Source: Chondrosia reniformis (Eukaryota > Porifera > Demospongiae > Chondrillida > Chondrillidae). Taken from it: a stretch of 64,000 nt of DNA. The stretch lies in contig OX359192.1 of assembly GCA_947172415.1 (NCBI GenBank), positions 8,677,401 through 8,741,400 on the forward strand, read 5' to 3'. Each line of letters starts with the position of its first letter. The first letter of the stretch is position 1. The notes beneath the pieces are model-generated. The model was not told where the DNA came from. It did not search any database and was given only the letters and a program-made list of their open reading frames with translations. The position numbers were made by a program, and so were the translations under genes. Of this stretch, positions 17,537 to 54,781 are shown in pieces.

Positions 17537-20500
17537 CTAAGCAAATCCTCTAGTGTACACTCCTGGAATCTCATTGGCCACTCTTCTCCTTCGTTGTCTG
17601 AAACCGTTATACACAGCATCATCTATGCTCTTCACTATACACTTGATCCACTCCTCCCTCTCCTCCTTGCTGCTAGCCATCAGCAGGTACCGGCTGTGAT
17701 TGCCTGTCAGATAGCACAAACCAAATGTCATGTGACCAGACCATGTGACCAGACCATCAACCAACCTTTGACAACCTTGTTCTCAGAATCCTTCTTCCAG
17801 GCTTTTATAATACCGGTCTCAGAATATACTTCAAATGCATGCTAAAGAATGGAAACAACAGAACAATCACTGAACATTTATATTATACATATTACTATAT
17901 GACTGTACAAACAGTTACAGATTATAGTACATACATATACGTAACAAGTTAAATTTAATAAATGTACTATATTTGCAAACTCACTAGTTTGTCAGACGAT
18001 TTCTCAGGTATTTCTCGAACTTTCAGATTCTCAAGTGGTATATTACCAATCAAGTCCTCATCCTTAAAAATGAAACACATTGAGTCGTAGTCGTGGCAAC
18101 AGAGAAATCAAATCTCACTATTTCCAATACTCACTTGTGCAGTGTCATTCTTAAAGTAGTAAAGTACACAGTCCTTCAGAATGAACCATCGATGTCTCTT
18201 GTTCTTAACTTTACCTCCTTCCTTGGTCAGCCAGCCTTCTCTCTCGGGATTGAAGAAGGTCTCGTCTAGCTGATCCTTATCTGGAACTTTGAAAGCTTCC
18301 TTTTTAATGCTTTCATACAATTCCTACAAATGTATATATAAGTGGGTGTGTCTGTACAAGTAAGTGGGTGTGTCTGTAACAAGTAAGTGGACGTGTCTGT
18401 AACAAGTAAGTGGGTGTGTCTGTAACAAGTAAGTGGACGTGTCTGTAACAAGTAAGTGGGTGTGTCTGTACAAGTAAGTGGGTGTGTCTGTAACAAGTAA
18501 GTGGACGTGTCTGTAACAAGTAAGTGGGTGTGTCTGTAACAAGTAAGTGGGTGTGTCTGTAACAAGTAAGTGGGTGTGTCTGTAACAAAGAATGAATGAA
18601 CAGCCTGGGCGGTGGGTATGGAAGTGAACACACCTCCAATATCTCCCTCGGTAGGTTTTCTCCATCGTTGATGCCTCTGTTCATCAAAATGAACCGATCT
18701 AGAGTTGGTTTATCCTTGACACTCGGGTTGTGCAGGCTCGTGTTTAACATAATGACAGAGTAAGCCAACACATAACAGGTGTCTACATGGTCAGAATGGG
18801 AGGGAGGAGATTGAAAGATCATGTCAATGTACGCACATGATCAGAATGGGAGGGAGGAGATTGAAAGATCATGTCAATGTACGCACATGATCAGAATGGG
18901 AGGGAGGAGATTGAAAGATCATGTCAATGTATCTACATGGTCAGAATGGGAGGGAGGGGAGATTGAAAGATCATGTCAATGTACGCACATGATCAGAATG
19001 GGAGGGAGGAGATTGAAAGATCATGTCAATGTACGCACATGATCAGAATGGGAGGGAGGAGATTGAAAGATCATGTCAATGTACGCACATGATCAGAATG
19101 GGAGGGAGGAGATTGAAAGATCATGTCAATGTATCTACATGGTCAGAATGGGAGGGAGGAGATTGAAAGATCATGTCAATGTACGCACATGATCAGAATG
19201 GGAGGGAGGAGATTGAAAGATCATGTCAATGTATCTACATGGTCAGAATGGGAGGGAGGAGATTGAAAGATCATGTCAATGTACGCACATGATCAGAATG
19301 GGAGGGAGGAGATTGAAAGATCATGTCAATGTACGCACATGATCAGAATGGGAGGGAGGAGATTGAAAGATCATGTCAATGTATCTACATGATCAGAATG
19401 TATATTGTGCAAAAGCTATTAGTCCAAACAAACCTGAGTTCTTAAACATTTCCGGATTACATTCACAAAAGTAGCTGGCAAAGAGCTCCATTATGCGGTC
19501 AATCTTCTGAGCTTCTCCGGGCAAGTGGAAACTCCATAGGAAGACCCTGTACAAGAGCAGAAAGGTATAAGGAGAAAGTTAAAAAGGTTGCCATGGAGAC
19601 TTAGAGAGGGTTACCATAGAGACTGACCTAAGTGCATCAACTAGTGATTTTCCTGTGAATTCATGAAGCCTTATAAATGCTTTTAAAGTGGCTATGTTTG
19701 CTTCCTTCCTATAGAGAAATAAAGAGAATGATGAATGGGTGGATGGAGTGGATGGGTGGGTGGATGGATGGATGGAGTGGAGTGGAGTGGAGTGGAGTGG
19801 AGTGGAGTGGAGTGGAGTGGAGTGGAGTGGTGGGTGGGTGGAGTGGAGTGGAGTGGAGTGGAGTGGAGTGGAGTGGAGTGGAGTGGGTGGGTGGATGGTT
19901 GGAGTGGAGTGGAGTGGAGTGGGTGGGTGGATGGATGGAGTGGAGTGGAGTGGAGTGGAGTGGAGTGGAGTGGAGTGGAGTGGAGTGGAGTGGAGTGGAG
20001 TGGAGTGGAGTGGAGTGGAGTGGAGTGGAGTGGAGTGGAGTGGAGTGGAGTGGTGGGTGGGGGGGTGGATGGATGGAGTGGAGTGGAGTGGAGTGGAGTG
20101 GAGTGGAGTGGTGGGTGGGGGGGTGGATGGATGGATGGATGGATGGATGGATGGATGGATGGATGGATGGATGGATGGATGGATGGATGGATGGATGGAT
20201 GGATGGATGGATGGATGGATGGATGGATTTACCCTTCTCCAAGATAATCACCAATAGATCGTTTGTGTAACTTTTCAGTAAACAGTAATTTGGCAATGTC
20301 TTCAGGAGTGTCACTGATGTATCCCTCAGCAACCCACTGCTTAATTCCCTGAGTAACCAAACATTAAAGATTGAGAGATGGTCTATTAGGGGCTGTATGA
20401 AGATTGAGAGTTGGTCTATTAGGGGCTGTATGAAGATTGAGAGTTGGTCTATTAGGGCTGTATGAAGATTGAGAGTTGGTCTATTAGGGGCTGTATGAAG

Positions 20501-21387
20501 ATTGAGAGATGGTCTATTAGGGGCTGTATGAAGATTGAGAGATGGTCTATTAGGGGCTGTATGAAGATTGAGAGATGGTCTATTAGGGGCTGTATGAAGA
20601 TTAAGAGATGGTCTATTGGGGGCTGTATGAAGATTAAGAGATGGTCTATTAGGGGCTGTATGAAGATTAAGAGATGGTCTATTAGGGGCTGTATGAAGAT
20701 TGAGAGATGGTCTATTAGGGGCTGTATGAAGATTGAGAGATGGTCTATTAGGGGCTGTATGAAGATTGAGAGATGGTCTATTGGGGGCTGTATGAAGATA
20801 TTATGAACAAGCAGTGCCGTACTTACATCTGAGGGCTTGTCATTGAAGGCCTTTATTAAAGCTTTCTTCCTTTTCTCGATCTCTTTGTCGCGTCTGTCCT
20901 CCCTAAGAAACAGGCAATCAAAAGATGTTAATGGCCCACCTTCATAAGTGCAAAGATAAAATAATACACTCCAATACACGTATACAGTACTATCATTATT
21001 TAAGTGCTGGTAATGCCTATGGTGGTACATTCTTGAGAGTTAACCTTATATGATACTATTATTGGTTAATTGGTACGAAAAGTTTTCCTAATGGATGAGA
21101 CAATAACTAACTTTTCGTTGACTTCATTCAGAAATTCTAGTTCACTGTCAATGTCCGCGATCTGTCTCTGAAGTTCCTGAACACGAACACATAAAACAGT
21201 ATAAAATATATAATAGAGAAACAACGGTAATACGAACTTTTATTTTGTCGAGTACGCTTTCCTTCTGTGCCCTAATCTCTGAAAGAAGACGCCTCTCCTC
21301 TTCCGACAATCTCGACTCTACTTCGGCCATATGATTCATTGAGGTTACCGGTTCAATAGCGATAACCGGGAGTGACATACTGGACAA
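17537..21387 (-). CDS. CYTH1: Cytohesin-type Arf guanine exchange factor
   Basis: Brefeldin-resistant ArfGEF acting at the plasma membrane. Eleven exons join to 419 aa: 21387-21238, 21176-21112, 20902-20827, 20348-20233, 19708-19628, 19546-19434, 18782-18634, 18323-18135, 18062-17985, 17841-17766, 17703-17537. Domain order is the cytohesin one: an N-terminal coiled coil (about residues 20-75), a Sec7 domain (about 80-255) with the catalytic glutamate finger E174 in [10 protein letters not shown] and the helix [12 protein letters not shown], then a PH domain from about residue 275 ([21 protein letters not shown]). The C-terminal polybasic end is RQRRRRVAN. It predates the vertebrate CYTH1-4 split. 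Four separate minisatellites occupy its introns. The donor after exon 1 (AAA|GTTCGT) is non-consensus. The N-terminal Met choice (21387) is the first of several in frame. Confidence 0.95.
18342..18590. repeat. Minisatellite, 22-23 bp unit, ~10 copies (cytohesin intron 7)
   Basis: Unit GTAACAAGTAAGTGGGTGTG plus TCT on the plus strand, with GTAC/GTAAC and GGGTG/GGACG variants. In the sense (minus) direction each unit reads TTGTTACAG, which resembles a 3' splice site. Confidence 0.95.
18784..19400. repeat. Minisatellite, 50 bp unit, ~12 copies (cytohesin intron 6)
   Basis: Unit CATGGTCAGAATGGGAGGGA then GGAGATTGAAAGATCATGTC then AATGTACGCA. It abuts exon 7. Read in the gene's sense, the unit contains the polypyrimidine tract CTCCTCCCTCCCATTCTGAC and, in a minority of copies, CATGTAG, exactly like the true acceptor at 18783. 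See the matching finding. Confidence 0.95.
19733..20229. repeat. GGAGT pentamer and GGAT tetramer microsatellites (cytohesin intron 4)
   Basis: Long runs of GGAGT interrupted by GGGTGGGTGGATGGATGG blocks, ending in a pure GGAT run (20125-20228). All six frames are open in stretches, giving four spurious ORFs of 170-207 codons. Strand composition is extremely purine/G biased. Confidence 0.97.
20367..20803. repeat. Minisatellite, 33 bp unit, ~13 copies (cytohesin intron 3)
   Basis: Unit ATTGAGAGATGGTCTATTAG plus GGGCTGTATGAAG. In the sense direction each unit carries TCTTCATACAG, which looks like a splice acceptor. The 11-codon period keeps frames open on both strands. Confidence 0.95.
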
Positions 21388-26652: not shown

Positions 26653-29600
26653 ATGAGAAGTATAAATCTGTTCTTAAAATCCCTTGCCTCCCTTTGGACT
26701 GTGATTATAGTTCTTCCAGTGGCCACAGAAGGTACATATTTACTGATTTAGAAGGGAAGTTTACAGATGCTCACAATAAGTATGTTTATTTTCACTAGGT
26801 TTGGAGTGCGCCAGGAACTTCAGAACAACTGCTATTGATGTACAAAATGGTGATTACGAGTCTTTGAAGAAGGGCTATCAGTATATTGTGCCAGAACTTA
26901 ATTTCACCTGTGATGGTAGAATTTTAAACTGGACATTGCAAGCAAACATTAACAGGCGTCGTCGAGGATCGAAGAGAGAAAGCTTAAGCTTACAAATATG
27001 GAGGCCTGCCGATCAGAGCTCTCCATCTGGTCTGATTTTTGTTAAAGTAGCCGAAGAAAACTACAGAGTGACATTATCTGGTGTGTCAAATACTGTTGTT
27101 CCACTCACACTTACACCCACTCAGACACTTACTGTTAACTCTGGTGATATTCTTGGCATCTCAGTCCCTGAAGAAGATTATCTTCATGTAGTAGCAACCT
27201 CTGTGAGTGAAGGAAGCTTTCAAGGAATAGTTTATGCTGCAGAGCAAGATGACTGTCAATTCTCTGATGACAATGATGATGATGATGATAGTTACAATAA
27301 TCCAAATTCTTTTGGTTTAAACTGTGACAGAGTGACCACCAGTTCATCCCTTTCAATTGTAATATCGCCAATATTACAGATATCAATGACAATAGAAGTA
27401 TCAACAACAACAATAGAAACAGCAGCAACAATAACAACAACAACAATAGAAGCAGCAGCGACAACAACAACAACAACAAAAGAAGCAGCAGCGACAATAA
27501 CAACAACAACAATAGCAGCAGCAGCGACAATAACAACAGAAACAACAACAACAATAGAAGCAGCAGCAACAATAACAACAACAACAACAATAGAAGCAGC
27601 AGCGACAATAACAACAACAACAATAGAAGCAGCAGCGACAATAACAACAGAAGCAACAACAACAACATCACTGTTAACCAGAAGGTCAAGCTTAGAAGAG
27701 AGACACTCAACCTCTGACATTATCATCTTAACACACTCTACATCTAGAGGTACCACCCATCTGCCTATATACATATACATAATGTATACCCAACATATGT
27801 GCCTAGCATCTTTTTATCTGTACAATTGATTACAGATATTTACTCAACAGGCATCACCATAGCAACTGATAATGGCAGTAAACAATTATCTGATACTATT
27901 AAACTGGAGATTGGATGGATAGTGGGAATTGTAATGTTCATAGGACTCCTGCTGCTGTTGTTACTACTACTCTCAGTAGTGCTAGTTAAAACCAAGCTAC
28001 AGAGTCGTAATCAACCAGATACTAGTCTCCTCAAAGAAGGTGAGTGTTCTAGCTCTACATAGTGTTCCTCTATTGTACCATGGCAATGTACATGTACGTC
28101 TCATGAGTAGATGAAAAAGTGCACAAGTCAGGAGAGTATGAGAGTGAATATTGTTATTTCCTGATCAATGAAGATGACAAAACACAGAGTAACTATGAAA
28201 AGATTGTTGGTCATGAAGAAACATTACAAAGCACTCATCAAGTCACAAGTCCATTTGTCAATCAAAGGGGTACATCTGACTATTCTGAGGCATATGAAGA
28301 TTTGGATGAGGCTGAAGGAGAACTAAGTGACTCCTTGTACCACTTTGTTCCATCATCAGTACAGCAAACACTTGTGGTTAAGTACACATTGGTTGATTTA
28401 ACCTCTTCATTCTATTCCCTTTAGCAAGCAAGACAGTCAAGACACTGGAAGAGTGCAGTTCTCAAAGTGGCAGCCATTGAGGTAAATCACTTCCTTACAA
28501 CTAATCATAAAGTCTTTAACAGTCAAGTAGTAGTTTACAGAGTGTTCTGTTGTATTCCATAATCTGCCCACAGGAAGGCACTGAAACTGGTAGCTCAGCC
28601 TACGAGAATGCACCCTTTGACCCACCTCCAGATAGAATGGACAAACTGTATGACCAGCTGTATAATAGGAGATGCTTGGAAATACCACAGAGGGCATTAA
28701 AGTAAGCTGAGGACCATATACTGCAAGACAGCAACACAGTCATATATACTGCAAATGTCTTTACAATAATATCTTTAATGTGTACATAATAATATAACAA
28801 AATGTTTGCCTTTTTGTGTGCAATGTAAAATGTATGTGGACCCTCGCTTATCCGGACCCAAGGGCCTGGACTATGTCCAGATAACTGAAACGACCGGATA
28901 TGTGAAGCAATACTTGTATGTATAATGCATACACATATATAATGTATATTTATATAATTATAATGTATATGTATTTATGTATAATGCATACACATATATA
29001 ATGTATATAGAAGAGAGAGTGTGATTGGAATAGGACAATTTGGTGAAGTGTTCAAGGCAACTTGGGAGACTCCTGTGGGAGCACAAGAGGTGGCTATCAA
29101 AATGCTAAAGGTGGGGGCAGAGGAGAAAGAAAAGGTGAAGTTCCTTCAGGAGATTGCAATCATGGGGCAGTTCATGCATCCTCATATAGTGAAGCTCATC
29201 GGTGCTGTCACAATAAGAGATCCCGTGAGTTGTCAACCAACAATGTTCTCTGTATATATATGAAACACAGAATTCAATTCCTTTTTTGAGTAGTATATGA
29301 TTGTTCTGGAATTCTTACATGGCGGTGATCTACTGACATATTTACAAGATTTAGCACCAAACAAGTGAGTCCATTGAATGGCATATGACTTCTTATTGAG
29401 TAGCAATTGAACATCCCCTATGAGTATTAATGTGCCAAACTGGGGAGAGAATGCATTCAATGATATTTCATATTTTGAATAGTCACTTGAAGGATTTCCC
29501 AGAAACTTTCTCACACTTTTGTCATTTCATAGTGAAACAGACTGCGTGCCAGCTACCTTGCCACTACAGTGTTTGAATTTCTGTCGAGATATTTCCAATG

Positions 29601-31008
29601 GAATGAAATATTTAGCAAAGAAAGGATTTGTGCATCGTGACTTGGCTGCAAGGAACATATTATTGGACAAACATATGAAGTGTAAAGTTAGTACCTACAT
29701 CTACATATTTGAAATGACAAATTACCAGCTTCTTTCTTTTTAAGATTGCAGACTTTGGGTTATCAAAGGACTTATATGAGGGTGTCTACTATGCATCAAC
29801 TGGAGGGAAAATCCCTCTGAAATGGACAGCCCCTGAGGTACATGTATGTATAGTTATTATGCCACAAATCTAAACTCATCTGTTTGCCTGACATAATAAA
29901 TAAGTCTATTTTAGTTAGACAACACTATAACACAGACAGGCTATCTTTTAGATTAATATTATCAACTTAGAAAATTACCTACAAAATCATAGCCCAGGAT
30001 CAGTTATTCAGAGAATAACTTCAAGCTAGTTAAACTATAATAATGTACCCATTTTGTTTTATATTGGTAATGCAGGCTATATTTTACAAGAAGTACAGTC
30101 CAGCCAGTGATGTGTGGAGCTATGGAATGTTGATGTTTGAGATCTGGTCACTTGGTTATAAGCCATTTCCAAACTATACAAATGAAGAGGTAGCTTCAAA
30201 TGTTTTGTGACATCTGCAAAGAATATTTGTACACATGTTTACATACTGTTTACAGGGAGTACAGCCATACTTGCACTATGTATACGTATATATAGTTCAT
30301 TTGTGGATAAATAACTGGCTATATATACGTATAGACTTTCTCTATACCCCCACCAATCTACTTGATTCAGGTATTGGAAGTGTTGCAGATGGACAACAGT
30401 TATGTCCAGCCGCCACCTCCAGGTTGTCCAAGAGCAATCTATGAATTAATGGTCTCATGCTGGTAGGCTCCATTGAAAATATACGTCATATACTTACATA
30501 CAGCCATACATATTCTCATAAGCATACCTCTCAAAGGCATGCAACGGATGAGAAGATGATAATATTTAGGGATTCAGTAGTCATCCTTCTTCCCAAGTTA
30601 TCATGTACTTGCATGTCATTGTTTATCAGCTAATTACTGATATCTCTGTATACATACCCATATCTGTATACATACCCATATCTGTATACATACCCATATC
30701 TGTATACATACCCATATCTGTATACATACCCATATATGTATATATACCCATATCTGTATACATACCTATGTTGCCCATACTAGTGAATGTTTCTAGCTCT
30801 GTAACTACTTAGGCATTTTGATCATCACTGCCGACCAGACTTTGAGCACATATACACGTATTTACAAGTGTATGATGATCATCTGTTGACAATCACAGAA
30901 GAACACATTGAGGAGGTGGAGGATAAGGAAATGGCAAGGAAACTGGGAGCACCTCTTGAGTATGCATTTAAGATGTACACTGACTTGCAGTCATTTTACC
31001 AAAAGTAA
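26653..31008 (+). CDS. Receptor tyrosine kinase 2, paralogue of RTK1
   Basis: Thirteen exons join to 871 aa: 26653-26731, 26799-27749, 27836-28039, 28111-28373, 28425-28481, 28574-28701, 29011-29224, 29294-29364, 29533-29686, 29745-29837, 30076-30189, 30371-30462, 30813-31008. Residues 1-26 are a signal peptide (FLKSLASLWTVIIVLPVA). The ectodomain has LNFTCDGRI, LQIWRP and VNSGDILGIS, followed by an acidic DDDDD patch and a Thr/Ala-rich stalk. The TM helix is at about 370-396. The juxtamembrane region holds tyrosines in SAYENAPFDPPP (a possible phosphotyrosine docking site). The kinase starts near 562: GIGQFGEV, VAIK lysine K591, HRDLAARN D692, IADFGLS D710, IPLKWTAPE. All catalytic residues are intact. 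It probably arose by tandem duplication with RTK1, since intron positions in the kinase domain match. A piece of exons 5-6 and the following intron is copied at 35565-36060. Confidence 0.9.
27400..27668 (+). repeat. Coding trinucleotide-rich stalk (ACA/GCA), RTK2
   Basis: Blocks of ATAACAACAACAACAATAG and AAGCAGCAGCGACA encode IEAAATITTTT-type repeats in the extracellular stalk. The repeat is in frame with the receptor. The reverse strand gives two spurious Leu/Val-rich ORFs. Confidence 0.9.
30650..30770 (+). repeat. Minisatellite, 18 bp unit, ~6.5 copies (RTK2 intron 12)
   Basis: Unit ATCTGTATACATACCCAT in tandem within the last intron of RTK2. The 69-codon ORF here is a product of the repeat. 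Confidence 0.93.
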
Positions 31009-31271
31009 CAGTTTGTCAATATTTCATGCAATTGTTGCATAAATGATAGAATAAATGTACACACGTATACACACAATCTTGACATCTGTAAAAGGACGAA
31101 TTGTAGTTTAATTAATGATTGGTTTCATTGCATTGTACAAAAATATTGTAATTATCGTTTTAATTGAGAAAACATTCTTGATACGTAATCAACAAAAATA
31201 ATGTAAAATGACAAACATTGGACCAAATTAATGTTTAATGTAAAATGACAAACATTGGACCAAATTTATGT
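31009..31271. other. Convergent 3' spacer, RTK2 / Frizzled-like A, with 37 bp repeats
   Basis: This is the 3' UTR zone of two converging genes. Two copies of a 37 bp unit (GTAAAATGACAAACATTGGA, CCAAATTTATGTTTAAT) lie at about 31195-31278. The same unit is expanded to about seven copies at 36147-36416 beside the duplicate gene. Confidence 0.7.
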
Positions 31272-34200
31272 TTAATGTAAAATGCTTCTTTCAGTATTGG
31301 ATCCACTGCTCTCCTTAAGAGCCTGTTCATTCCCTCTAGAGTCTTCAAGTATATCAACCCCTGCCTGAGCATTGCAGATGCAGGTGGTTAGTTCATACCC
31401 TCTAGAGTCTTCAAGTATATCAGCCCCTGCCTGAGCATTGCAGATGCACGTGGTTAGTTCAGCCTCTTCCTTCGGACTCCTGTCATCCATTTCATTAAGA
31501 CAGTGATTTGGGGTGCCTGGTTCCTTGGAGAAAACGTAGGAAGCAGAATTCTCTGCTACTTCTGAGGATTTTAATGTGTTACTTTTTTTAAATTCAATGG
31601 AATCTCCAGTAGATTGTGTCTTTGAAAAGGTTGTAATTTTCATACACTTGCATACTCCTGCTGAAGAGAAGAATTTCGTTACTCTACTGATATCTTCACT
31701 GGTGAAAGCAAACACAAGATTGGACAACGGAAGTCCAGCAAGCAGGAGGAACACAATTCCATTAATGATAATTCCACTTTCAGCCCCTAGAGTAGGGCAC
31801 GAAGGATTATTCCCACTCAATTGGCAGAGGGCATATTGGATTGCAAGGCTGATATATACATCAAAAGTTGCAAATGATTCTGAAAAGCGCACTAGAGATA
31901 AGACTCCGGCTAAAAAGTATGTAATTGAGACCAACAACAGCTTTGCCTCTGGCGTACTTAGCAGCTTTCCTTTTCTGTACAGACCCTGAGTCTAAATGAA
32001 ACGTAGAGATGAGAAGAATCTTATGGAAGTCAAACAATTAATAATGATACCAGACACCTGTAGCTTTAGGTAGGCATTGAACAAAGCTCAGCAATTAATG
32101 TGTACATAAAAGTGTAAAGCTAGAAGTTCCAGTTAGTATATCTACTGAGTATAATCTTTGCATGTATGATAAATGTGGAATTGTAAAAAGAATCTTTTTA
32201 ATTGTCTGTGGCAGTTACATATAAATCACAAATTGCTTCTGAATCAACACATGCAGACACATGTCTCCTAATGTACGTACCTTGTGTGTCATCCAGAAGA
32301 GCATGAGAAGCAAGCTCACTCCAATGGTCATAATGATTTGAAGGGGGAAAACAAAAGTGTAAAATAAAACATCAAAATTATTAGCCATGCAGTCAACAGG
32401 AGGTAATCTTAATGGAATATAATCAAATCCTGCCAGTGTGATGATGGGTCCCAAAGCACTGATAAAAATCCCAACCACAATTATTGATATGTGGATTATA
32501 GTCTGTTTCTTCCTTTTCATAATTGATTTTGCTCTTGGTGATACCAACATGATACTAAGGTAGGTTATGTGAGCCAGCCAGAATATGAAGTTTAGGAGCA
32601 GCAAAAACTGGAACGTAACGCCTGTATATATATTGATAACAAGAATACTTGGTAAACATTAATATGTCTATATATATGTAAATCTCATATTATATGTAGC
32701 TATCTACACTGTAGTCATTTATAAAGTCTATTGTATGAATGTAATAGAGATGCAAGATAATTAATACATTTCAGTGAATTTGCCATCGATTGATACACTT
32801 TAAGAGCTAATGAGCCAACTGACCAGAAATGACACAGTAAGGCGATCCTTTCTGTAAAAGTGTTTCAATGAGATTGTCTGAAGAGCAAAGAATATTAATC
32901 CCTCCAATTGGTGGTATCAAAATAGATAGAACTATTGACATACAGAAATAAAATGAACTCCACAGAGTATGAAATGAGAACATGATAGATGATTGCATAT
33001 AAAACTCTGAAATTGCACTTTTCCAAGTAACTATATAGGGTTGTAATTAAATCATGTCATTGTTTAGTTAGGCAGTTTTTGTGGACCATTGATTTCCATA
33101 CATAACAGTATTGTATTCATAGAAAATTCCAGTGCATAGGTATACGTACGTACATGTATATGACTAATGGAATCTTTGTTTCGTGAAGATTTTCATGACC
33201 TACTAGAATTCTGGCAGATAGATACTAAGATGCTGTTGGTTAAATGACTGCTTGCTTACCATATAATACTTGCAGTACAGTTTCATATAACACCAAAATA
33301 GTTGGAAATCTCAATCTATTTCAATAATAATAATAATAATAATAATAAATAATGATTGTTTTTTATTGTGACATGCTATACAAAACTGAAATCAGTAAAA
33401 ACAGCCCAACCATAAGGGTTTATAAGTCACACTAGAAAGAGTTTACCATAAATTAGAGTGGAATAAGGATTTCTTCTAACTGCGTCGAACTTATCTTTGT
33501 AAAGTTCATCTTTCGACTTTGGGAGCGTCTAGGCGGTCACTGAAGAAGACCCCCAGGGTCGAAATGTTTGGCAGAAAGAAGAATTGAAAAAACTGCGTCT
33601 CTAGACGCTCCCAAAGTCGAAAGATGAACCTTTACAAAGATAAATTAGAATATCTTGCAATTGGATCGTATATAATATACATATAATATAATAAACTAAT
33701 AAATTTAACTTTAATAAACAAGGTTCATACATATTGGTATGCAACTCACAGTGCCTTGTGATGTATGACTGCCTTAACAATAAATATAGTCCCAGCAATC
33801 AGAGCAACTGCCACAGCAATGTACCTGCACACCTCTTCATAGAGGTATATAGATTGCTCTCTAAAGTTGAATGAGTCGCACTTCGGAAGGCAAAAGGAAC
33901 ATTCCTTATAAAAGCCAGGATGACAAGTAATGTTGGTAGATACTTCAACTGAGGAGTTGTTGGGTGATGTGCGGGTACTGCTTGCATTACAATGGGATAA
34001 CAAACTACTGTTGGACCATTCCTGGCAATGTATGGAAATATTTCTCTCCTCCAGAAAGGACCAAAGATTGTTGCCACACGGGGTTTCTCTCAGTTGAACA
34101 CAATCCTCCCATGTTGCACTAATGACTCCATCAATGGTGCAGGTTGGGTAAAGTAGAGCACACAATGCTGGCAGTTCTGATACACAGTTACTCATGTTGT

Positions 34201-35220
34201 CCATTAAAGTGAATGAGGTATTACCCTCCAGCGATATATTCAGAATCAAGCCATCAATAAAGTCAATATATTGCAGCTCAATTCCACTCAATAGAGGTGC
34301 CACACTGCTGCTGGACAAGAAGGTACTACAGATACCTCCTTTAGTCTCACAGCAAGAAGATGGAACACAGAGAGTTTCATCTACTCCAGGTCCTTCGGAA
34401 CAGATTGGTGCCTGCAGTGATGACATACAGGACACTTGGTCGTGCTATTGGTAATACTGTTACAGTAGTATTAATTTCACAACACAACCTACAATTTCTG
34501 GTAGTTCTTCACACTTGGGAAATTCAAAGTCTCTGGTCTGAGGATGGTTTTTAAGCAGGGACAACTCTCTCTCACAAAACTTGTTTGTGACATCTAAACA
34601 AGCACTTTTGCTAAGTTCGACAGTATGTCCGCCAGGCGCGCAGGGCCGATAGTAATACTGACAGAGCAGAGGGATTCCCATCTCCCTGCAAGCTGGTGAT
34701 ATGAAGGTGAAATAATCCTCAATGGCCTCAAAGATGCTTTGCACTTCTGATTCATCTCCTCTGATGCTAATAGACAAAGGAACTGAGCAACCTATATCCT
34801 CCAAATAACTTTTACAGAAGGAATCCTCTGGAAGCGGGACACAAACTGCGCTTTCAGTACTCTTCGTAATGCAGTGTTCTTTGGACTAAACAAGCAGTAG
34901 TAACACAACGATAACCTCTTGCTACATATTGTAACAGACGACATGCACATAGTTAAAGGTTTAGACTAAGCCTTATAATATCTGTGCCAATTTTATTAAC
35001 TCACTTGTCCTAGAGTTGTGTTTTCTATTTTAAGAGTACTAGAGCAGGAAGATTCGAGCACGTTTAACAGACCTTTCAGCTCATTTTTCCAGTCCTCAGC
35101 TGGCGGTCGGTAGACATGATAGATTATTAGTGGAAGCGTAAAAAGGGTGGCAATAGTTATTGTAGCGATCAGCAAAACGAGCTTTTCTTTCCTGTTAAAC
35201 AGACTATTTGCAGATTTCAT
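31272..35220 (-). CDS. Frizzled-like 7TM receptor A, with two CRD-like modules
   Basis: Seven exons join to 865 aa: 35220-35005, 34885-34493, 34444-33750, 33309-33260, 33006-32824, 32621-32281, 31991-31272. The N-terminus has a hydrophobic signal/anchor. Exon 2 resembles a Frizzled cysteine-rich domain (FISPACREM, LLCQYYYRPC, FEFPKCEELPE). Exon 3 has a second cysteine-rich block with the same spacing flavour (SELPALCALLYPTC, ETPCGNNLW), many NxS/T sites, a short CLPKC linker and TM1. The small 50-nt exon 4 bridges TM1-TM2, and TM6-TM7 lie in exon 7 (LLLVSITYFLAGVLSLVRF; INGIVFLLLAGLPLSNLVF). The Dishevelled-binding KTxxxW motif after TM7 is not visible. The cytoplasmic tail holds a 22-residue unit (ELTTCICNAQAG...) twice. 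Class F GPCR affiliation is by architecture; the ligand is unknown. Confidence 0.8.
33448..33649. mobile_element. Fold-back insertion with 10-bp TSD, present only in duplicate A
   Basis: ATAAATTAGA occurs at 33448-33457 and 33640-33649. The 182 bp between them is absent from the otherwise identical intron of copy B (near 38480), which keeps a single site. The insert contains a ~41 bp inverted repeat (33492-33532 against 33601-33642; core CGACTTTGGGAGCGTCTAG) and an antisense ATTTCGACCC...GGGTCTTCTTCAG block. It is non-coding. It inserted after the gene duplication, or was lost precisely from B (less likely). Confidence 0.85.
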
Positions 35221-35393
35221 CTCGGTTAGTGCAGCCGATCTAAGTTAGCTAGACAGACAGACTTAGCCAAACATCCTAAACCTGACACGGTTATGAATAT
35301 AAATTTGTTCACTAAAATGGGCATTGCTCGGTATGGGATAGGAATGTTTTATGTAAAGAGACTTAACCTACGGGGACTTGGGATCGTTAAACA

Positions 35394-35540
35394 TAGAATG
35401 CGCAACGCAATTTAGGAATTCCTACAATGCGTAGATTGTTGCGCATTCTATAGAAAGTGCACGTTCGATTCTATAGAAAGTGCACGTTCGATTCTATAGA
35501 AAGTGCACGTTCGATTCTATAGAAAGTGCACGTTCGATTA
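35394..35540. repeat. Hairpin plus four 23-bp repeats at the duplication junction
   Basis: TAGAATGCGCAAC (35394-35406) pairs with GTTGCGCATTCTA (35438-35450). This is followed by four tandem copies of ATTCTATAGAAAGTGCACGT plus TCG. The block sits exactly where homology between units A and B ends. Confidence 0.85.
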
Positions 35541-35564
35541 ATGCAACACAAGAAACTAAACACA

Positions 35565-36060
35565 AGACACTGGAAGAGTGCAGCTCTCAAAGTGGCAGCC
35601 ATTGAGGTACATAACTTCCTTACAACTAATCATAAAGTCTTTAACAGTCAAGTAGTAGTTTACAGAGTGTTCTGTTGTATTCCATAATCTGCCCACAGGA
35701 AGGCACTGAAACTGGTAGCTCAGCCTACGAGAATGCACCCTTTGACCCACCTCCAGATAGAATGGACAAACTGTATGACCAGCTGTATAATAGGAGATGC
35801 TTGGAAATACCACAGAGGGCATTAAAGTAAGCTGAGGACCATATACTGTAGGACAGCAACACAGTCATATATACTGCAAATGTCTTTACAATAATATCTT
35901 TAATGTGTACATAATAATATAACAAAATGTATGTGGACCCTCGCTTATCCGGACCCAAGGGCCTGAAATATGTCCAGATAACTGAAACGACCGGATATGT
36001 GAAGCAATACTTGTATGTATAATGCATACACATATATAATGTATATTTATATAATTATAA
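35565..36060 (+). pseudogene. Orphan fragment of RTK2 (exons 5-6 and flanking introns)
   Basis: This is a near-identical copy of 28434-28970: the end of RTK2 juxtamembrane exon 5, intron 5, exon 6 (SAYENAPFDPPP region) and part of intron 6. Splice sites and frame are preserved, but there is no signal peptide, TM or kinase around it, so it cannot encode a receptor. Relative to the original it lacks a 27 bp stretch bounded by AAATGT direct repeats. It is best read as debris of a larger tandem duplication from which the RTK2 kinase exons were later deleted. It could still be spliced as a stray exon. Confidence 0.9.
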
Positions 36061-36146
36061 TGAATAATCAAAGTGATAATCAAACCACAAGTATAATCAG
36101 TCAAACATCAATAGGAGGGGAAAACACGAAAGAAGCAATTGCAACA

Positions 36147-36416
36147 AAAATAATGTAAAATGACAAACATTGGACCAAATTTATGTCTAATGTAAAATGA
36201 CAAACATTGGACCAAATTTATGTTTAATGTAAAATGACAAACATTGGACCAAATTATGTCTAATGTAAAATGACAAACATTGGACCAAATTATGTCTAAT
36301 GTAAAATGACAAACATTGGACCAAATTTATGTTTAATGTAAAATGACAAACATTGGACCAAATTTATGTTTAATGTAAAATGACAAACATTGGACCAAAT
36401 TTATGTTTAATGTAAA
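36147..36416. repeat. 37 bp tandem repeat, ~7 copies (expanded in unit B)
   Basis: Tandem GTAAAATGACAAACATTGGA + CCAAATT(TA)TGT(T/C)TAAT copies next to the stop codon of Frizzled-like B. Unit A has only about two copies. The repeat runs into the last codons of the gene, whose stop codon lies at its edge. Confidence 0.93.
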
Positions 36417-39400
36417 ATGCTTCTTTCAGTATTGGATCCACTGCTCTCCTTAAGAGCCTGTTCATTCCCTCTAGAGTCTTCAAGTATATCAGCCCCTGCC
36501 TGAGCATTGCAGATGCACGTGGTTAGTTCAGCCTCTTCCTTCGGACTCCTGTCATCCATTTCATTAAGACAGTGATTTGGGGTGCCTGGTTCCTTGGAGA
36601 AAACGTAGGAAGCAGAATTCTCTGCTACTTCTGAGGATTTTAATGTGTTACTTTTTTTAAATTCAATGGAATCTCCAGTAGATTGTGTCTTTAAAAAGGT
36701 TGTAATTTTCATACACTTGCATACTCCTGCTGAAGAGAAGAATTTCGTTACTCTACTGATATCCTCACTGGTGAAAGCAAACACAAGATTGGACAACGGA
36801 AGTCCAGCAAGCAGGAGGAACACAATTCCATTAATGATATTTCCACTTTCAACCCCTAGAACAGGGCATGAAGGATTATTCCCATTCAATTGGCAGAGGG
36901 CATATTGGATTGCAAGGTTGATATATACATCATGAGTTGCAAATGATTCTGAAAAGCGCACTAGAGATAAGACTCCGGCTAAAAAGTATGCAATTGAGAC
37001 CAACAACAGCTTTGCCTCTGGCGTACTTAGCAGCTTTCCTTTTCTGTACAGACCCTGAGTCTAAAGGAATGTAGAGATGAGAAGAATCTTATGGAAGTCA
37101 AACAATTAATAATGATACCAGACACCTGTAGCTTTAGGTAGGCATTGAACAAAGCTCAGCAATTAATGTGTACATAAAAGTGTAAAGCTAGAAGTTCCAG
37201 TTAGTATAGCTACTGAGTATGTAATCTTTGCATGTATGATAAATGTGGAATTGTAAAAAGATACTTTTTAATTGTCTGTGGCAGTTACATATAAATCACA
37301 AATTGCTTCTGAATCAACACATGCAGACACTAATGTACGTACCTTGTGTGTCATCCAGAAGAGCATGATAAGCAAGCTCACTCCAATGGTCATAATGATT
37401 TGAAGGGGGAAAACAAAAGTGTAAAATAAAACATCAAAATTATTAGCACTGCAGTAAACAGGAGGTAATCTTGACGGAATATAATCAAATCCTGCCAGTG
37501 TGATGATGGGTCCCAAAGCACTGATAAAAATCCCAACCACAACTATTGATATGTGGATTATAGTCTGTTTCTTCCTTTTCATAATTGATTTTGCTCTTGG
37601 TGATACCAACATGACACTAAGGTAGGTTATGTGAGCCAGCCAGAATATGAAGTTTAGGAGCAGCAAAAACTGGAACATAACACCTGTATATATATTGATA
37701 ACAAGAATACTTGGTAAACATTAATATGTCTATATATATATAAATCTCATATTATAGCTATATGCACTGTAGTCATTTATATGAATGTAATAAAGATGCA
37801 AGATAATTAATACATTTCAGTGAATTTGCCATCGATTGATACACATTGGGAGCTAATGAGCCAACTGACCAGAAATGACACAGTAAGGCGATCCTTTCTG
37901 TAAAAGTGTTTCAATGAGACTGTCTGAAGAGCAAAGAATATTAATCCCTCCAATTGGTGGTATCAAAATAGATAGAACTATTGACATACAGAAATAAAAT
38001 GAACTCCAAAGAGTATGAAATGAGAACATTATAGATGATTGCATATAAAACTCTGAAATTGCACTTTTCCAAGTAACTATATGGGGTTGTAATTAATACA
38101 TGTCATTGTTTAGTTAGGCAGTTTTTGTGGACCATTGATTTCCATACATAACAGTATTGTATATTCATAGAAAATTCCAGTGCATAGGTATACGTATATT
38201 ACTAATGGAATCTTTGTTTCGTAAAGATTTTCATGACCTACTAGAAGGCAGCTTGTAAATAGATACTGAGATTCTATTGGTTAAATGACTGCTTGCTTAC
38301 CAAATAATACTTGCAGTACAGTTTCATATAACACCAAAATAGTTGGAAATCTCAATCTATTTCAATTAAAATAATAATAATAATAATATAAATAATGATT
38401 GTTTATTATTGTGACATGCTATACAAAACTGAAATCAGTAAAAACAGCCACAAGGGTTTACATTAGAAAGAATTCACCATAAATTAGAGTATCTTGCAAT
38501 TGGATAGTATATAATATACAAATAATATAATAAACAAGGTTCATAGGTTCAAGGATCAAGGTTCATTGGTATGCAACTCACAGTGCCTTGTGATGTATGA
38601 CTGCCTTAACAATAAATATAGTCCCAGCAATCAGAGCAACTGCCACAGCAATGTACTTGCAAACCTCTTCATAGAGGTATATAGATTGCTCTTTAAAGTT
38701 GAATGAGTCGCACTTCGGAAGGCAAAAGGAACATTTCTTATAAAAGCCAGGATGACAAGTAATGTTGGTAGATACTTCAACTGAGGAGTTGTTGGGTGAT
38801 GTGTGGGTACTGCTTGCATTACAATGGGACAACAAACTACTGTTGGACCATTCCTGGCAATGTATGGAAATATTTCTCTCCTCCAGAAAGGACCAAAGAT
38901 TGTTGCCACACGGGGTTTCTCTCAGTTGAACACAATCCTCCCATGTTGCACTAATGACTCCATCAATGGTGCAGGTTGGGTAAAGTAGAGCACACAATGC
39001 TGGCAGTTCTGATACACAGTTACTCATGTTGTCCATTAAAGTGAATGAGGTATTACCCTCCAGTGATATATTCAGAATCAAGCCATCAATAAAGTCAATA
39101 TATTGCAGCTCAATTCCACTCAATAGAGGTGCCACACTGCTGCTGGACAAGAAGGTACTACAGATACCTCCTTTAGTCTCACAGCAAGAAGATGGAACAC
39201 AGAGAGTTTCATCTACTCCAGGTCCTTCGGAACAGATTGGTGCCTGCAGTGATGACATACAGGACACTTGGTCGTGCTATTGGTAATACTGTTACAGTAG
39301 TATTAATTTCACAACACAACCTACAATTTCTGGTAGTTCTTCACACTTGGGAAATTCAAAGTCTCTGGTCTGAGGATGGTTTTTAAGTAGGGACACCTCT

Positions 39401-40049
39401 CCCTCACAAAACTTGTTTGTGACATCTAAACAAGCACTTTTGCTAGGTTCGACAGTATGTCCGCCAGGCGCGCAGGGCCGATAGTAATACTGACAGAGCA
39501 GAGGGATTCCCATCTCCCTGCAAGCTGGTGATATGAAGGTGAAATAATCCTCAATGGCCTCAAAGATGCTTTGCACTTCTGATTCATCTCCTCTGATGCT
39601 AATAGACAAAGGAACTGAGCAACCTATATCCTCCAAATAACTTTTACAGAAGGAATCCTCTGGAAGCGGGACACAAACTGCGCTTTCAGTACTCTTCGTA
39701 ATGCAGTGTTCTTTGGACTAAACAAGCAGTAGTAACACAACGATAACCTCTTGCTACATATTGTAACAGACGGCATACACATAGTTAAAGGTTTATAAGC
39801 CTTTTAATATCTGTGCCAATTTTATTAACTCACTTGTCCTAGAGTTGTGTTTTCTATTTTAGGAGTACTAGAGCAGGAAGATTCGAGCACGTTTAGCAGA
39901 CCTTTCAGCTCATTTTTCCAGTCCTCAGCTGGCGGTCGGTAGACATGATAGATTATTAGTGGAAGCGTAAAAAGGGTGGCAATAGTTATTGTAGCGATCA
40001 GCAAAACGAGCTTTTCTTTCCTGTTAAACAGACTATTTGCAGATTTCAT
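36407..40049 (-). CDS. Frizzled-like 7TM receptor B, recent duplicate of A
   Basis: Seven exons at the positions equivalent to copy A join to 843 aa: 40049-39834, 39717-39325, 39276-38582, 38350-38301, 38052-37870, 37683-37343, 37060-36407. All splice sites and frames are intact, so both copies are probably functional. Protein differences from A are few: R/G and L/V changes in the CRD (NKFCEGEVSLL here), T/V and Y/S changes near the TMs, and loss of one 22-residue tail unit (a single ELTTCICNAQAG copy). As in A, no KTxxxW motif follows TM7. The conservation of the tiny 50-nt exon 4 and of the 48-bp intron 2 in both copies supports the model. Confidence 0.8.
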
Positions 40050-49804: not shown

Positions 49805-50371
49805 TCACTTGACTAACATTGGTTCGGCAATGTTCTTTGCGAGTTCCTTGTCAAATAAGACCTCCACTACAGCCAGGGCAAACTCAAAACACGTCCCCGG
49901 TCCCCTACTTGTGATGAGGCTTCCATCAACGCACACTCTCTCCTCTACGTAGGTATATCGCCCACAGTCGACAAGCTGTTGTTTCACTGAAGGGTGGGAG
50001 GTGAGTCGCTTGTTCCTAGCTACATCATGTGACATCAAAGCAATGGGTGCTGCGCACACTGCAGCAATGAAGCCTCCTTGGGACTCTTGTCTCAACAAAA
50101 TTTCCTTTACCAGCGCACTCCCCGCCAGTCTCCTGGCTCCCTCTCCCCCACCGGGTAGAAGGACGACATCGTACGGACCATCTCTGACCGCATCGGCCAA
50201 GGACTTTTCCGGTATGAGGGTCACTTGTCTGCTGCAGAGGACGGGATCCGTACCATCCAGACCGGCTAATGTCACGTTGACTTTAGCTCTGCGGAGCACG
50301 TCCGTGGAAATGACAGTCTCCATCTCCTCCGCTCCGGCGGCTAGGATCACCAGTGCTTTTTTGGCCGCCAT
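49805..50371 (-). CDS. PARK7: DJ-1 / Parkinson disease protein 7, single exon
   Basis: DJ-1/PfpI superfamily oxidative-stress sensor and glyoxal-handling protein, cytosolic and mitochondrial. The 188 aa ORF is uninterrupted and collinear with human DJ-1 (189 aa). The key residues fall at the human positions: E18 in AGAEEMET, the redox cysteine C106 in AAVCAAP (nucleophile elbow), and H126 in TSHPS. The GPGTCFEFALAVVE helix closes the fold. No intron is present, unlike most neighbours. The start Met at 50371 is the only one compatible with homology. It is divergent from the membrane protein gene across 234 bp. Confidence 0.97.
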   Translation of the reverse strand: MAAKKALVILAAGAEEMETVISTDVLRRAKVNVTLAGLDGTDPVLCSRQVTLIPEKSLADAVRDGPYDVVLLPGGGEGARRLAGSALVKEILLRQESQGGFIAAVCAAPIALMSHDVARNKRLTSHPSVKQQLVDCGRYTYVEERVCVDGSLITSRGPGTCFEFALAVVEVLFDKELAKNIAEPMLVK

Positions 50372-50605
50372 TTTGTTTGTATTATAAAAATTTTACCCTC
50401 TATAAGTATATTGTACCCTCTCTAGCTCCTACAGCACAACACAGTAGATTTGGTAGTAGCAACAATGACTATTATGTATTCTAACATGCTGTTCCCATTA
50501 GCCGATTAGCTTAGCTTGGTCCAAAAGGTGCAGACCAAATTTAGTGGGCTGCGCGGTGATATGGGAATAGGGACACCCGGAAGTCGAACCGTACAGTGCT
50601 GCAAC
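50372..50605. promoter_or_regulatory. Divergent promoter, DJ-1 / membrane protein gene
   Basis: 234 bp between opposing start codons. An upstream in-frame ATG at 50516 could extend the plus-strand gene, but the signal peptide favours 50606. Inferred from position only. Confidence 0.45.
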
Positions 50606-53496: not shown

Positions 53497-54726
53497 CTAT
53501 CCAGTGGTTGCGTTAAAGTGGACAGTCACTTTCTCTCCGGCACTGGACATGGCTACCATTGGGTAAAACCCTCCTTGAGGAATGACCATTTTGGACTCTC
53601 CAATTTCCTTTCCATTCTTGGTAAAGTAGATCACACACTCCTGACCTGATCCATTGGACTTGAAAGATGCAGTAGTTTTGGCTAATAGCTGTTTCTCATC
53701 TTCTTCACAATCGTCTTCATTGGTTTGATGTGATTCCCTCCATTCAGTGAACCTGACACCACATCCCATCACATCTCCCATCTGGCAGGTTGGACCAAAG
53801 GGCTTACCATAGCCATTCTCCTGATACAACATACCGTTGTCGGCATGGTAACCAATGGATCCATGCTTCCAGCCAGGATAGGAGTCAAGGATGTAAGTGT
53901 ACGGTCCCAGTCCAATTCCAACCTCTGATTGGCCCTTAGAATCATCTATACTGACCTCAAAGTAGCAATTCTGAGGATCCATTGGTGTGTTGCTGATTGC
54001 TATGGCAACATCCTTATTCGCTGCTTGAAAGATTAGGGAGTGAGGGTTTTCCCCAAATTGGATTCCATTGGACCTTGCCCATACCTCAAGAGGAGAACAA
54101 TTCACTATCATATCTGCTATGTGTGAGTCTCCTGACAGAGGAGGACGATAGCTGTGACCCAGGTACTTGACACACTCCATTTCACTATGAAGACCAATTA
54201 ACGGATAATGACCTTTCATTGGTCTTTGAAAATCTACTGCATGTCCAACCATTTCCCCATTCCTTGTGAACCAAACTCTATTCTTCCTCTCACCTCGGCC
54301 CACCTCGTAGTCTATACCTACTCCCATGCGATCACCCTTCTTACAGACAGGTCCAAATGCCGCCCCCCACCCAGCCTGATGGAACAGCTTTCCATCGTCA
54401 GCATGATAACCAATGCTCTCCCTGTTCCATCCGGGCATCCTCAGCAGCGGGTAGGAGATTACACCTACTCCGATACCTATAGCCTTAGACCGTCCCTCGT
54501 CAACTATCTCTATTTCAAAGTAATTATATAAATGAGACATCGGTTCTTTCATCCGTACAACTCCCACCTCTCCACCACCTTGCTTCCTGCAGAACTGAAA
54601 GAGGTGACATCCGTCCTCTTTCTTCTTTGTAATAGATGCACCTATATCAGCACCGAATAATTCTACGAAATCTATTGTATTCTTCTCCGCCATTATCTGA
54701 TTCTCATCTCCTATACCATGAATCAA
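53497..54726 (-). CDS. SPRYD3: SPRY domain-containing protein 3 (two SPRY domains), single exon
   Basis: Uninterrupted 409 aa ORF with two SPRY/B30.2-type domains, at about residues 40-205 and 225-405. Both repeat the family pattern (PGWNRESIGYHADDGKLF and PGWKHGSIGYHADNGMLY, then AAFGPVCKKGDRMG and KPFGPTCQMGDVMG, and FTRNGEMVG / FTKNGKEIG). An acidic loop (EDDCEEDEK) sits in the second domain at the place where human SPRYD3 also has a Glu-rich insert. SPRY domains bind short peptides; the partner is unknown. The first Met (54726) and Met12 (AEKNTIDF) are both possible starts. It has no introns, in contrast to most neighbours. It is divergent from SSNA1 with only 55 bp between ATGs. Confidence 0.93.
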   Translation of the reverse strand: MIHGIGDENQIMAEKNTIDFVELFGADIGASITKKKEDGCHLFQFCRKQGGGEVGVVRMKEPMSHLYNYFEIEIVDEGRSKAIGIGVGVISYPLLRMPGWNRESIGYHADDGKLFHQAGWGAAFGPVCKKGDRMGVGIDYEVGRGERKNRVWFTRNGEMVGHAVDFQRPMKGHYPLIGLHSEMECVKYLGHSYRPPLSGDSHIADMIVNCSPLEVWARSNGIQFGENPHSLIFQAANKDVAIAISNTPMDPQNCYFEVSIDDSKGQSEVGIGLGPYTYILDSYPGWKHGSIGYHADNGMLYQENGYGKPFGPTCQMGDVMGCGVRFTEWRESHQTNEDDCEEDEKQLLAKTTASFKSNGSGQECVIYFTKNGKEIGESKMVIPQGGFYPMVAMSSAGEKVTVHFNATTG

Positions 54727-54781
54727 GGAAGCGCCATTTTTAGAAGGCGTACCTCTTAGATGTGGGCGTGGTTAATTCAAA
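54727..54781. promoter_or_regulatory. Ultra-short divergent promoter, SPRYD3 / SSNA1
   Basis: 55 bp between opposing start codons, containing GTGGGCGTGG, a GC/KLF-like box. The core promoters must overlap coding or UTR sequence. Confidence 0.55.

Follow-up and report, generated by a model that had tools for sequence, protein, structure and literature searches.

Two tandem genes of the demosponge Chondrosia reniformis, here called copies A and B, are best read as class F receptors which carry two cysteine-rich domains (CRDs), lack both of the motifs associated with Dishevelled, and belong to a branch of the class that has expanded in this sponge. This account, taken as a whole and with its conjectural steps included, is one that we hold with somewhat better than even confidence. 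The genes lie head to tail on the minus strand of a single scaffold, in the 64,000-nucleotide stretch that was analysed (the window; contig OX359192.1, which we number C4, as C4:8677401-8741400). The assembly, odChoReni1.1, amounts to 117,379,552 bases in 15 contigs, and its published description lists 14 chromosomes together with a mitochondrial sequence (PMC12181767). The predicted order of domains is an N-terminal hydrophobic segment, a Fz CRD, a strongly diverged second CRD, a cysteine-containing linker and a class F seven-transmembrane (7TM) core. All receptor features given below are on the minus strand and are numbered from the first base of the window.

Each gene is modelled as seven exons forming an open spliced frame with GT-AG introns. 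Copy A (31272-35220) has exons at 35220-35005, 34885-34493, 34411-33750, 33315-33260, 32931-32824, 32621-32281 and 31991-31272 and encodes 831 amino acids. Copy B (36407-40049) has exons at 40049-39834, 39717-39325, 39243-38582, 38356-38301, 37977-37870, 37683-37343 and 37060-36407 and encodes 809. As a control, the spliced aligner returned exactly the copy B protein when given copy A as query on copy B DNA. The span of 31272-40049 marked in a preliminary description of this DNA is bounded by the stop codon of copy A and the start codon (ATG) of copy B, and the four peptides on which that description based its CRD-like blocks are present in both copies: LLCQYYYRPC (34669-34640 in A, 39501-39472 in B) and FPKCEELPE (34522-34496, 39354-39328) from exon 2, PALCALLYPTC (34171-34139, 39003-38971) and ETPCGNNLW (34087-34061, 38919-38893) from exon 3. 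The acceptor of exon 5 was chosen so that the exon begins at 32931 in A and 37977 in B, since seven hydrophobic segments then remain after the ectodomain and relatives share the join; this short form supplies one helix between TM1 and TM3. A longer form, which is also open, was rejected, because it would put an extra hydrophobic segment into the region from TM1 to TM3 and because relatives use the short site.

The 7TM core occupies residues 395 to about 706 in both copies, encoded by exons 3-7 (31650-33838 in A, 36719-38670 in B), and comprises seven hydrophobic segments; over the aligned 7TM region the copies are 94% identical. It is preceded by the linker, residues 349-394 of copy B (38671-38808; 33839-33976 in A), whose C-x2-C-x3-C arrangement is shared with relatives on contig C3, in the group termed C3b below. 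Judged at the level of the family, the core is assigned to class F. A profile of the family 7TM region, built from nine sequences including the window copies, was searched against all PDB chains and gave seven matches at E-values up to 10, every one of them class F: three Frizzled-3 chains (1.2e-4, 0.0018 and 0.0019), Smoothened (0.038) and three Frizzled-6 chains (0.071, 0.073 and 0.28). No GPCR from outside class F, adhesion receptors included, was among these matches. Furthermore, three of the nine members match PF01534 themselves, two C3b genes with 36.8 and 33.8 bits and C4_1151 with 25.9, the cut-off being 22.3. The class F identity put forward in the preliminary description is upheld by these two results. 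By contrast, the adhesion receptor profile (7tm_2, PF00002) found two of the nine members, with a best E-value of 0.074 and, in one, 11.1 bits against a cut-off of 20.6. An SFRP, that is, a CRD without transmembrane helices, does not fit either, as seven hydrophobic segments follow the CRDs.

Some points weigh against this assignment. Neither window copy singly matches PF01534 (copy B was tried at E-values up to 10), and a core outside class F was open for as long as copy B alone was considered; the family profile against PDB and the Pfam matches of the relatives rule it out. When the family was compared by HHalign with four receptor classes from its own genome, Frizzled ranked first with 35.9 over 285 columns, followed by rhodopsin (26.8, 35 columns), adhesion (25.4, 183 columns) and glutamate receptors (15.3), at a low probability of 29-57%. 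However, canonical Frizzleds score 47.7-54.8 against adhesion receptors and only 35.9-41.1 against the window receptor family, and the best of the reversed controls, in which the family was compared with itself reversed, reached 31.7, so that the HHalign comparison of classes is weak when taken alone. In a tree of 28 rows the family falls on one side of a branch supported at 100/99, and within it the gene on contig C7 groups with the window copies at 92/83; with only three Frizzled and adhesion groups and no outgroup, that tree cannot decide between Frizzled and adhesion placement. HHalign and HMMER differ by three residues over TM6, and the class F switch residue is therefore not placeable there.

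The ectodomain begins after a hydrophobic segment which, by hydropathy, resembles a signal anchor (residues 15-37 of copy B, 39939-40007; 35110-35178 in A). A methionine, a run of basic residues and a hydrophobic segment that contains F-x-x-P recur in five of five branches (the window genes, C3a_1567, C3b_8037, C4_1151 and C7), a likeness that is partly selected because these segments were found by alignment to the window protein. The segment is likely to be a retained signal anchor. Exon 2 (34493-34885 in A, 39325-39717 in B) is a phase 0-0 exon of 131 codons, 98% identical between the copies, and is recognised as a Fz CRD. Alone, exon 2 of copy B scores 32.6 bits with Pfam Fz, for which the cut-off is 32.1; in a whole-genome Fz scan copy B reaches 31 bits, or 32.8 with its frame neighbours, while copy A, at 30 bits, lies slightly below the cut-off. 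The exon holds ten cysteines, the number stated for the Fz domain (PMC3251606). It supplies the extracellular Fz CRD of a class F GPCR.

The first part of exon 3 (33977-34411 in A; 38809-39243 in B, residues 204-348) most likely encodes a second CRD, strongly diverged from the first. The alternative is that exon 2 is the sole true CRD and that exon 3 is an enlarged cysteine-rich linker which has come to resemble one. We consider this unlikely in view of the profile evidence. A leave-one-out profile of 19 CRDs, built without exon 3, recovered it with E-values of 3e-5 (A) and 4.1e-5 (B) among 3,734 frames taken from the window and further loci of the same genome. In the window, the frames of exon 2 alone scored higher and the next frame stood at 0.9, and none of 500 shuffles of exon 3 that kept its cysteines attained its score. 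A profile of 11 family CRDs gave 9e-4, and earlier profiles built from smaller sets of CRDs ranged from 4e-4 to 2e-3. With HHalign, exon 3 stood above all 60 shuffles for each of four targets, and when it is aligned with other CRDs, ten rows in all, seven cysteines are shared by every row. Exon 3 is also 28-31% identical to the corresponding region of three C3b relatives, and all three match Pfam Fz in that region (best E-value 2.2e-4), albeit, in one example, with 24.5 bits, below the curated cut-off of 32.1. These relatives and those of the C3a group were found with the window protein as query and are therefore not a blind sample.

Several observations favour the single-CRD alternative and weigh against a second CRD. 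Exon 3 has no Pfam match, and a PDB search with a profile of exon 3 and its C3b counterparts returned no Fz chain, only four irrelevant matches with E-values of 0.11 or weaker. The outcome also depends on which CRDs enter the profile: exon 3 was found at 0.016 to 0.027 with C3a CRDs and exon 2, at 0.05 to 0.5 with C3b CRDs only, and at 0.9 to 1.6 with C3a, exon 2 and canonical CRDs together. With a profile of eight canonical and SFRP-like CRDs it fell outside the six best frames of the window and to the level of its shuffles, two of 500 of which equalled or exceeded it. Furthermore, it sits on a very long branch (3.7) of the CRD tree and has 12 cysteines rather than ten. A low mean AlphaFold pLDDT (predicted local distance difference test) of 38.0 would appear to add to this, but the Pfam-recognised exon 2, serving as a control, reached only 42.7; both predictions used window sequences only, and the value for exon 3 carries no information in either direction. 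Of the two CRD-like blocks claimed in the preliminary description, then, exon 2 agrees with the Fz model of Pfam, whereas exon 3 is taken for a CRD on profile evidence only. A recent internal duplication of the CRD was considered and rejected, since exons 2 and 3 are not neighbours on the CRD tree, on which, however, only 3 of 17 inner branches are firm. The nearest sequence to exon 2 is a C3a CRD (35% over 114 columns), and the nearest to exon 3 a C3b CRD (27% over 97 columns).

Two motifs, KTxxxW and YPxRP, have been reported as important for the interaction of Frizzled with Dishevelled (PMC10387068), and both are missing from the window receptors. The absence of KTxxxW after TM7, already remarked on in the preliminary description, holds for both copies and extends to all 18 family models, whereas the genome's five canonical class F genes include three that have the motif. 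YPxRP at the start of TM2 is present in four of the five canonical genes and in none of the 13 family models whose sequence extends over the site; copy B has RFPTIL instead (38335-38352; 33294-33311 in A). At the position of the Frizzled KTxxxW, copy B reads NLVFAFTSEDISRV (36749-36790; 31680-31721 in A), and a pattern running from [NS]-x-x-F up to D-[ILVF] follows TM7 in all 18 family models, although the pattern was written after the alignment had been viewed. The sole string of the form K-[TS]-x-x-x-[WFY] in the window copies, KTQGLY, lies between TM5 and TM6.

It might be argued that these are fast-evolving Frizzleds which still bind Wnt through the exon 2 CRD and engage Dishevelled through other contacts. 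The genome does contain Wnt (25 exon-level matches) and DIX (four matches) sequences, and exact KTxxxW is absent from two of the five canonical genes. Substitutions at KTxxxW are described for HduFzdA of another demosponge (PMC8235796), and in Dictyostelium discoideum KTxxxW is described as kept in FslJ and FslK only (PMC10445921). Loss of KTxxxW alone is weak evidence, because those two canonical genes and most D. discoideum Fsl proteins also lack the exact motif. We nonetheless find a Wnt and Dishevelled role improbable for the window receptors, since both motifs are missing family-wide, a different conserved segment stands after TM7 in every family model, and canonical class F genes exist to serve the Wnt role. 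The tail itself, counted after residue 696, is 113 residues in copy B and 135 in copy A. It had been portrayed as long and bearing unique repeats; the only repeat found is a 66-bp tandem duplication confined to copy A (31332-31463), with two units alike at 62 of 66 bases where copy B has one unit.

The family that includes the window genes comprises at least 18 members, with zero to two CRDs and an N-terminus resembling a signal anchor. When the genome was searched with the copy B protein, relatives came up on C3, in two groups (C3a, 1.54-1.64 Mb; C3b, 8.02-8.04 Mb), and on C4, C7 and C11. The 18 models with a 7TM region are the two window genes, eight from C3a, four from C3b, two from C4, and one each from C7 and C11; this is a lower bound, and several models are partial. 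Where the N-terminal exon was found, one CRD is present in C3a_1567 and C3b_8037 and, counting the diverged one of exon 3, two in the window copies, while C7 and C4_1151 have none in the sequence examined at those loci. One CRD each was also found in C3a 1537, 1542, 1554 and 1559 and in C3b 8018, 8022 and 8032, for which the upstream part may be incomplete and could hold a further CRD. The recovery of ectodomains covers neither C3a 1547, 1593 and 1633 nor C4_1455 and C11. The partial-looking C3b_8028 contributed its CRD and is not counted among the 18. The exon-start phases run 0,0,2,1,1,0 in the one-CRD genes C3a_1567 and C3b_8037 and 0,0,0,2,1,1,0 in the window genes. The latter thus equal the one-CRD series plus one phase 0-0 exon, exon 2, as would be expected if a symmetric exon had been inserted.

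Fz matches at C3:1610634, at C12:6819613 and on C13 fall outside the family models, the three C13 CRDs having served as the SFRP-like rows. Another Fz match, C12:7487732, was excluded because its spliced alignment enters a kinase-like stretch. At this locus (C12:7486500-7489500) a weakly Fz-like CRD and a transmembrane-like stretch are followed by a kinase-like start, IGKGNFGQVFKAE, and the locus is possibly a CRD receptor tyrosine kinase.

The two window genes themselves are read as products of one recent duplication, and consequently do not count as two independent observations. In the first gene models they are identical at 809 of 834 aligned residues, with 25 differences, and their proteins are 97% identical. 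Nonsynonymous divergence (dN) is 0.015 and synonymous divergence (dS) 0.017, and the ratio of about 0.9 gives no sign of constraint since the duplication, a further point against the account favoured here. The amino-acid differences cluster in the 7TM region, with 17 in 295 residues (dN 0.030, dS 0.019) and only 7 in the 395 residues that precede it, counts too small for any claim of selection. Furthermore, the stretch 28438-28805 is repeated with 98.6% identity at 35563-35930, between the two receptor genes, and the duplication therefore included part of the adjoining locus.

These figures could also be taken to mean that the second copy is a haplotype left uncollapsed in the assembly, or a duplicate in decay; there would then be a single gene, possibly a weakly constrained one. 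The near identity of the proteins and the dN/dS ratio are compatible with this, and four haplotypic duplications are described as having been taken out of the assembly by hand (PMC12181767). We think it unlikely, however, given that the copies are arranged head to tail within a single scaffold, that the duplication spans part of the next locus, and that the frames are open in both. The conclusions on class F and on the CRDs are independent of the haplotype question.

The stretch at 28438-28805 belongs to a tyrosine kinase locus on the plus strand, whose kinase exons lie at 28985-31000, with PF07714 matched in the frames 28985-29260 and 29483-29740. Upstream of these exons (26780-28424), a frame at 27748-28062 contains a hydrophobic, probably transmembrane stretch. 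The copies also differ in intron 3, which is 434 bases long in A and 225 in B. Positions 33480-33650 in copy A intron 3 are missing from copy B and have ends that resemble an inverted repeat; they are probably a small mobile-element insertion that postdates the duplication. Short tandem repeats lie immediately downstream of the copies, with about seven units of some 36 bases at copy B (36151-36419) and fewer at copy A (31199-31270).

The closest known receptors are canonical Frizzled and Smoothened by their core, and the dictyostelid Fsl proteins by their evolutionary pattern. To our knowledge the known Frizzleds and Smoothened have one CRD each, and Frizzleds are known chiefly as receptors for Wnt that act through Dishevelled. 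Canonical Frizzleds (PF01392 with PF01534) share with the window receptors the Fz CRD, the cysteine linker and, by profile, the class F core. The five canonical genes of this genome are single open frames of 538-647 amino acids with one CRD and an N-terminus that reads as an ordinary signal peptide, whereas the window genes have seven exons, probably two CRDs and a signal-anchor-like N-terminus. Smoothened, which has one CRD, resembles the window receptors in its class F core, and its R-Y-P-A-V-I-L-F-Y at TM2 recalls their RFPTILVLYE. Two Fz domains do occur in one membrane protein in Corin; this is a single-pass serine protease, not a GPCR, and other modules lie between its two Fz domains.

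In dictyostelids the Fsl and Fsc proteins are described as class F-like receptors that expanded in this lineage, lost the CRD repeatedly and mostly lack KTxxxW (PMC10445921). The likeness to the sponge family is one of evolutionary pattern, as described; dictyostelids are another eukaryotic lineage, and two CRDs do not feature in the description of their receptors. From another sponge, Amphimedon queenslandica, three full-length Frizzled-family receptors are described, six of nine initial Frizzled-like sequences having been set aside as fragmentary (PMC4302439). By title and abstract, no class F receptor with two CRDs turned up when the open-licence PMC literature was searched, preprints not included, which does not prove absence in print.

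How such receptors might work can be outlined within the account favoured here, that of class F receptors with two CRDs and no Dishevelled motifs. The N-terminal segment would stay in the membrane, and the ectodomain would be tethered at both ends. The CRDs may capture an extracellular, perhaps lipid-bearing, ligand, bound mainly by the distal CRD, while the diverged proximal one would act as a spacer or an additional site. The signal would pass through the linker to the core, which may couple to heterotrimeric G proteins instead of Dishevelled. The extra CRD could have been gained when a symmetric phase 0-0 exon entered the first intron of a one-CRD gene. The clustered expansion of the family and its varied ectodomain would be easier to reconcile with a role in sensing or recognition than with a fixed developmental function. 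It is conceivable, though doubtful, that the family forms a class F subfamily with eight helices, counting the retained N-terminal one, and zero to two CRDs through gain and loss of exons, which signals independently of Dishevelled and responds to non-Wnt ligands such as symbiont or environmental lipids.

A genome in which canonical class F receptors, Wnt and DIX sequences stand beside a large multi-exon branch that lacks the Dishevelled motifs and has zero to two CRDs offers a natural comparison for the roles of the CRD and of the Dishevelled interface. It suggests that a receptor expansion like that of Fsl has taken place within the animals, too. The two window receptors would be a test case for ligand recognition by tandem CRDs, provided that each CRD folds and binds.

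Elsewhere in the window, pieces of other genes are found on the minus strand, namely DJ-1/PfpI (49808-50392), SPRY (53500-54771) and an amino-acid transporter (57575-58444). A long, near-perfect tandem array at 61345-62802 is 97-98% self-identical at shifts in steps of 20 bases, and further tandem arrays lie at 18779-19400, 19732-20228, 20367-20799 and 58434-59044.

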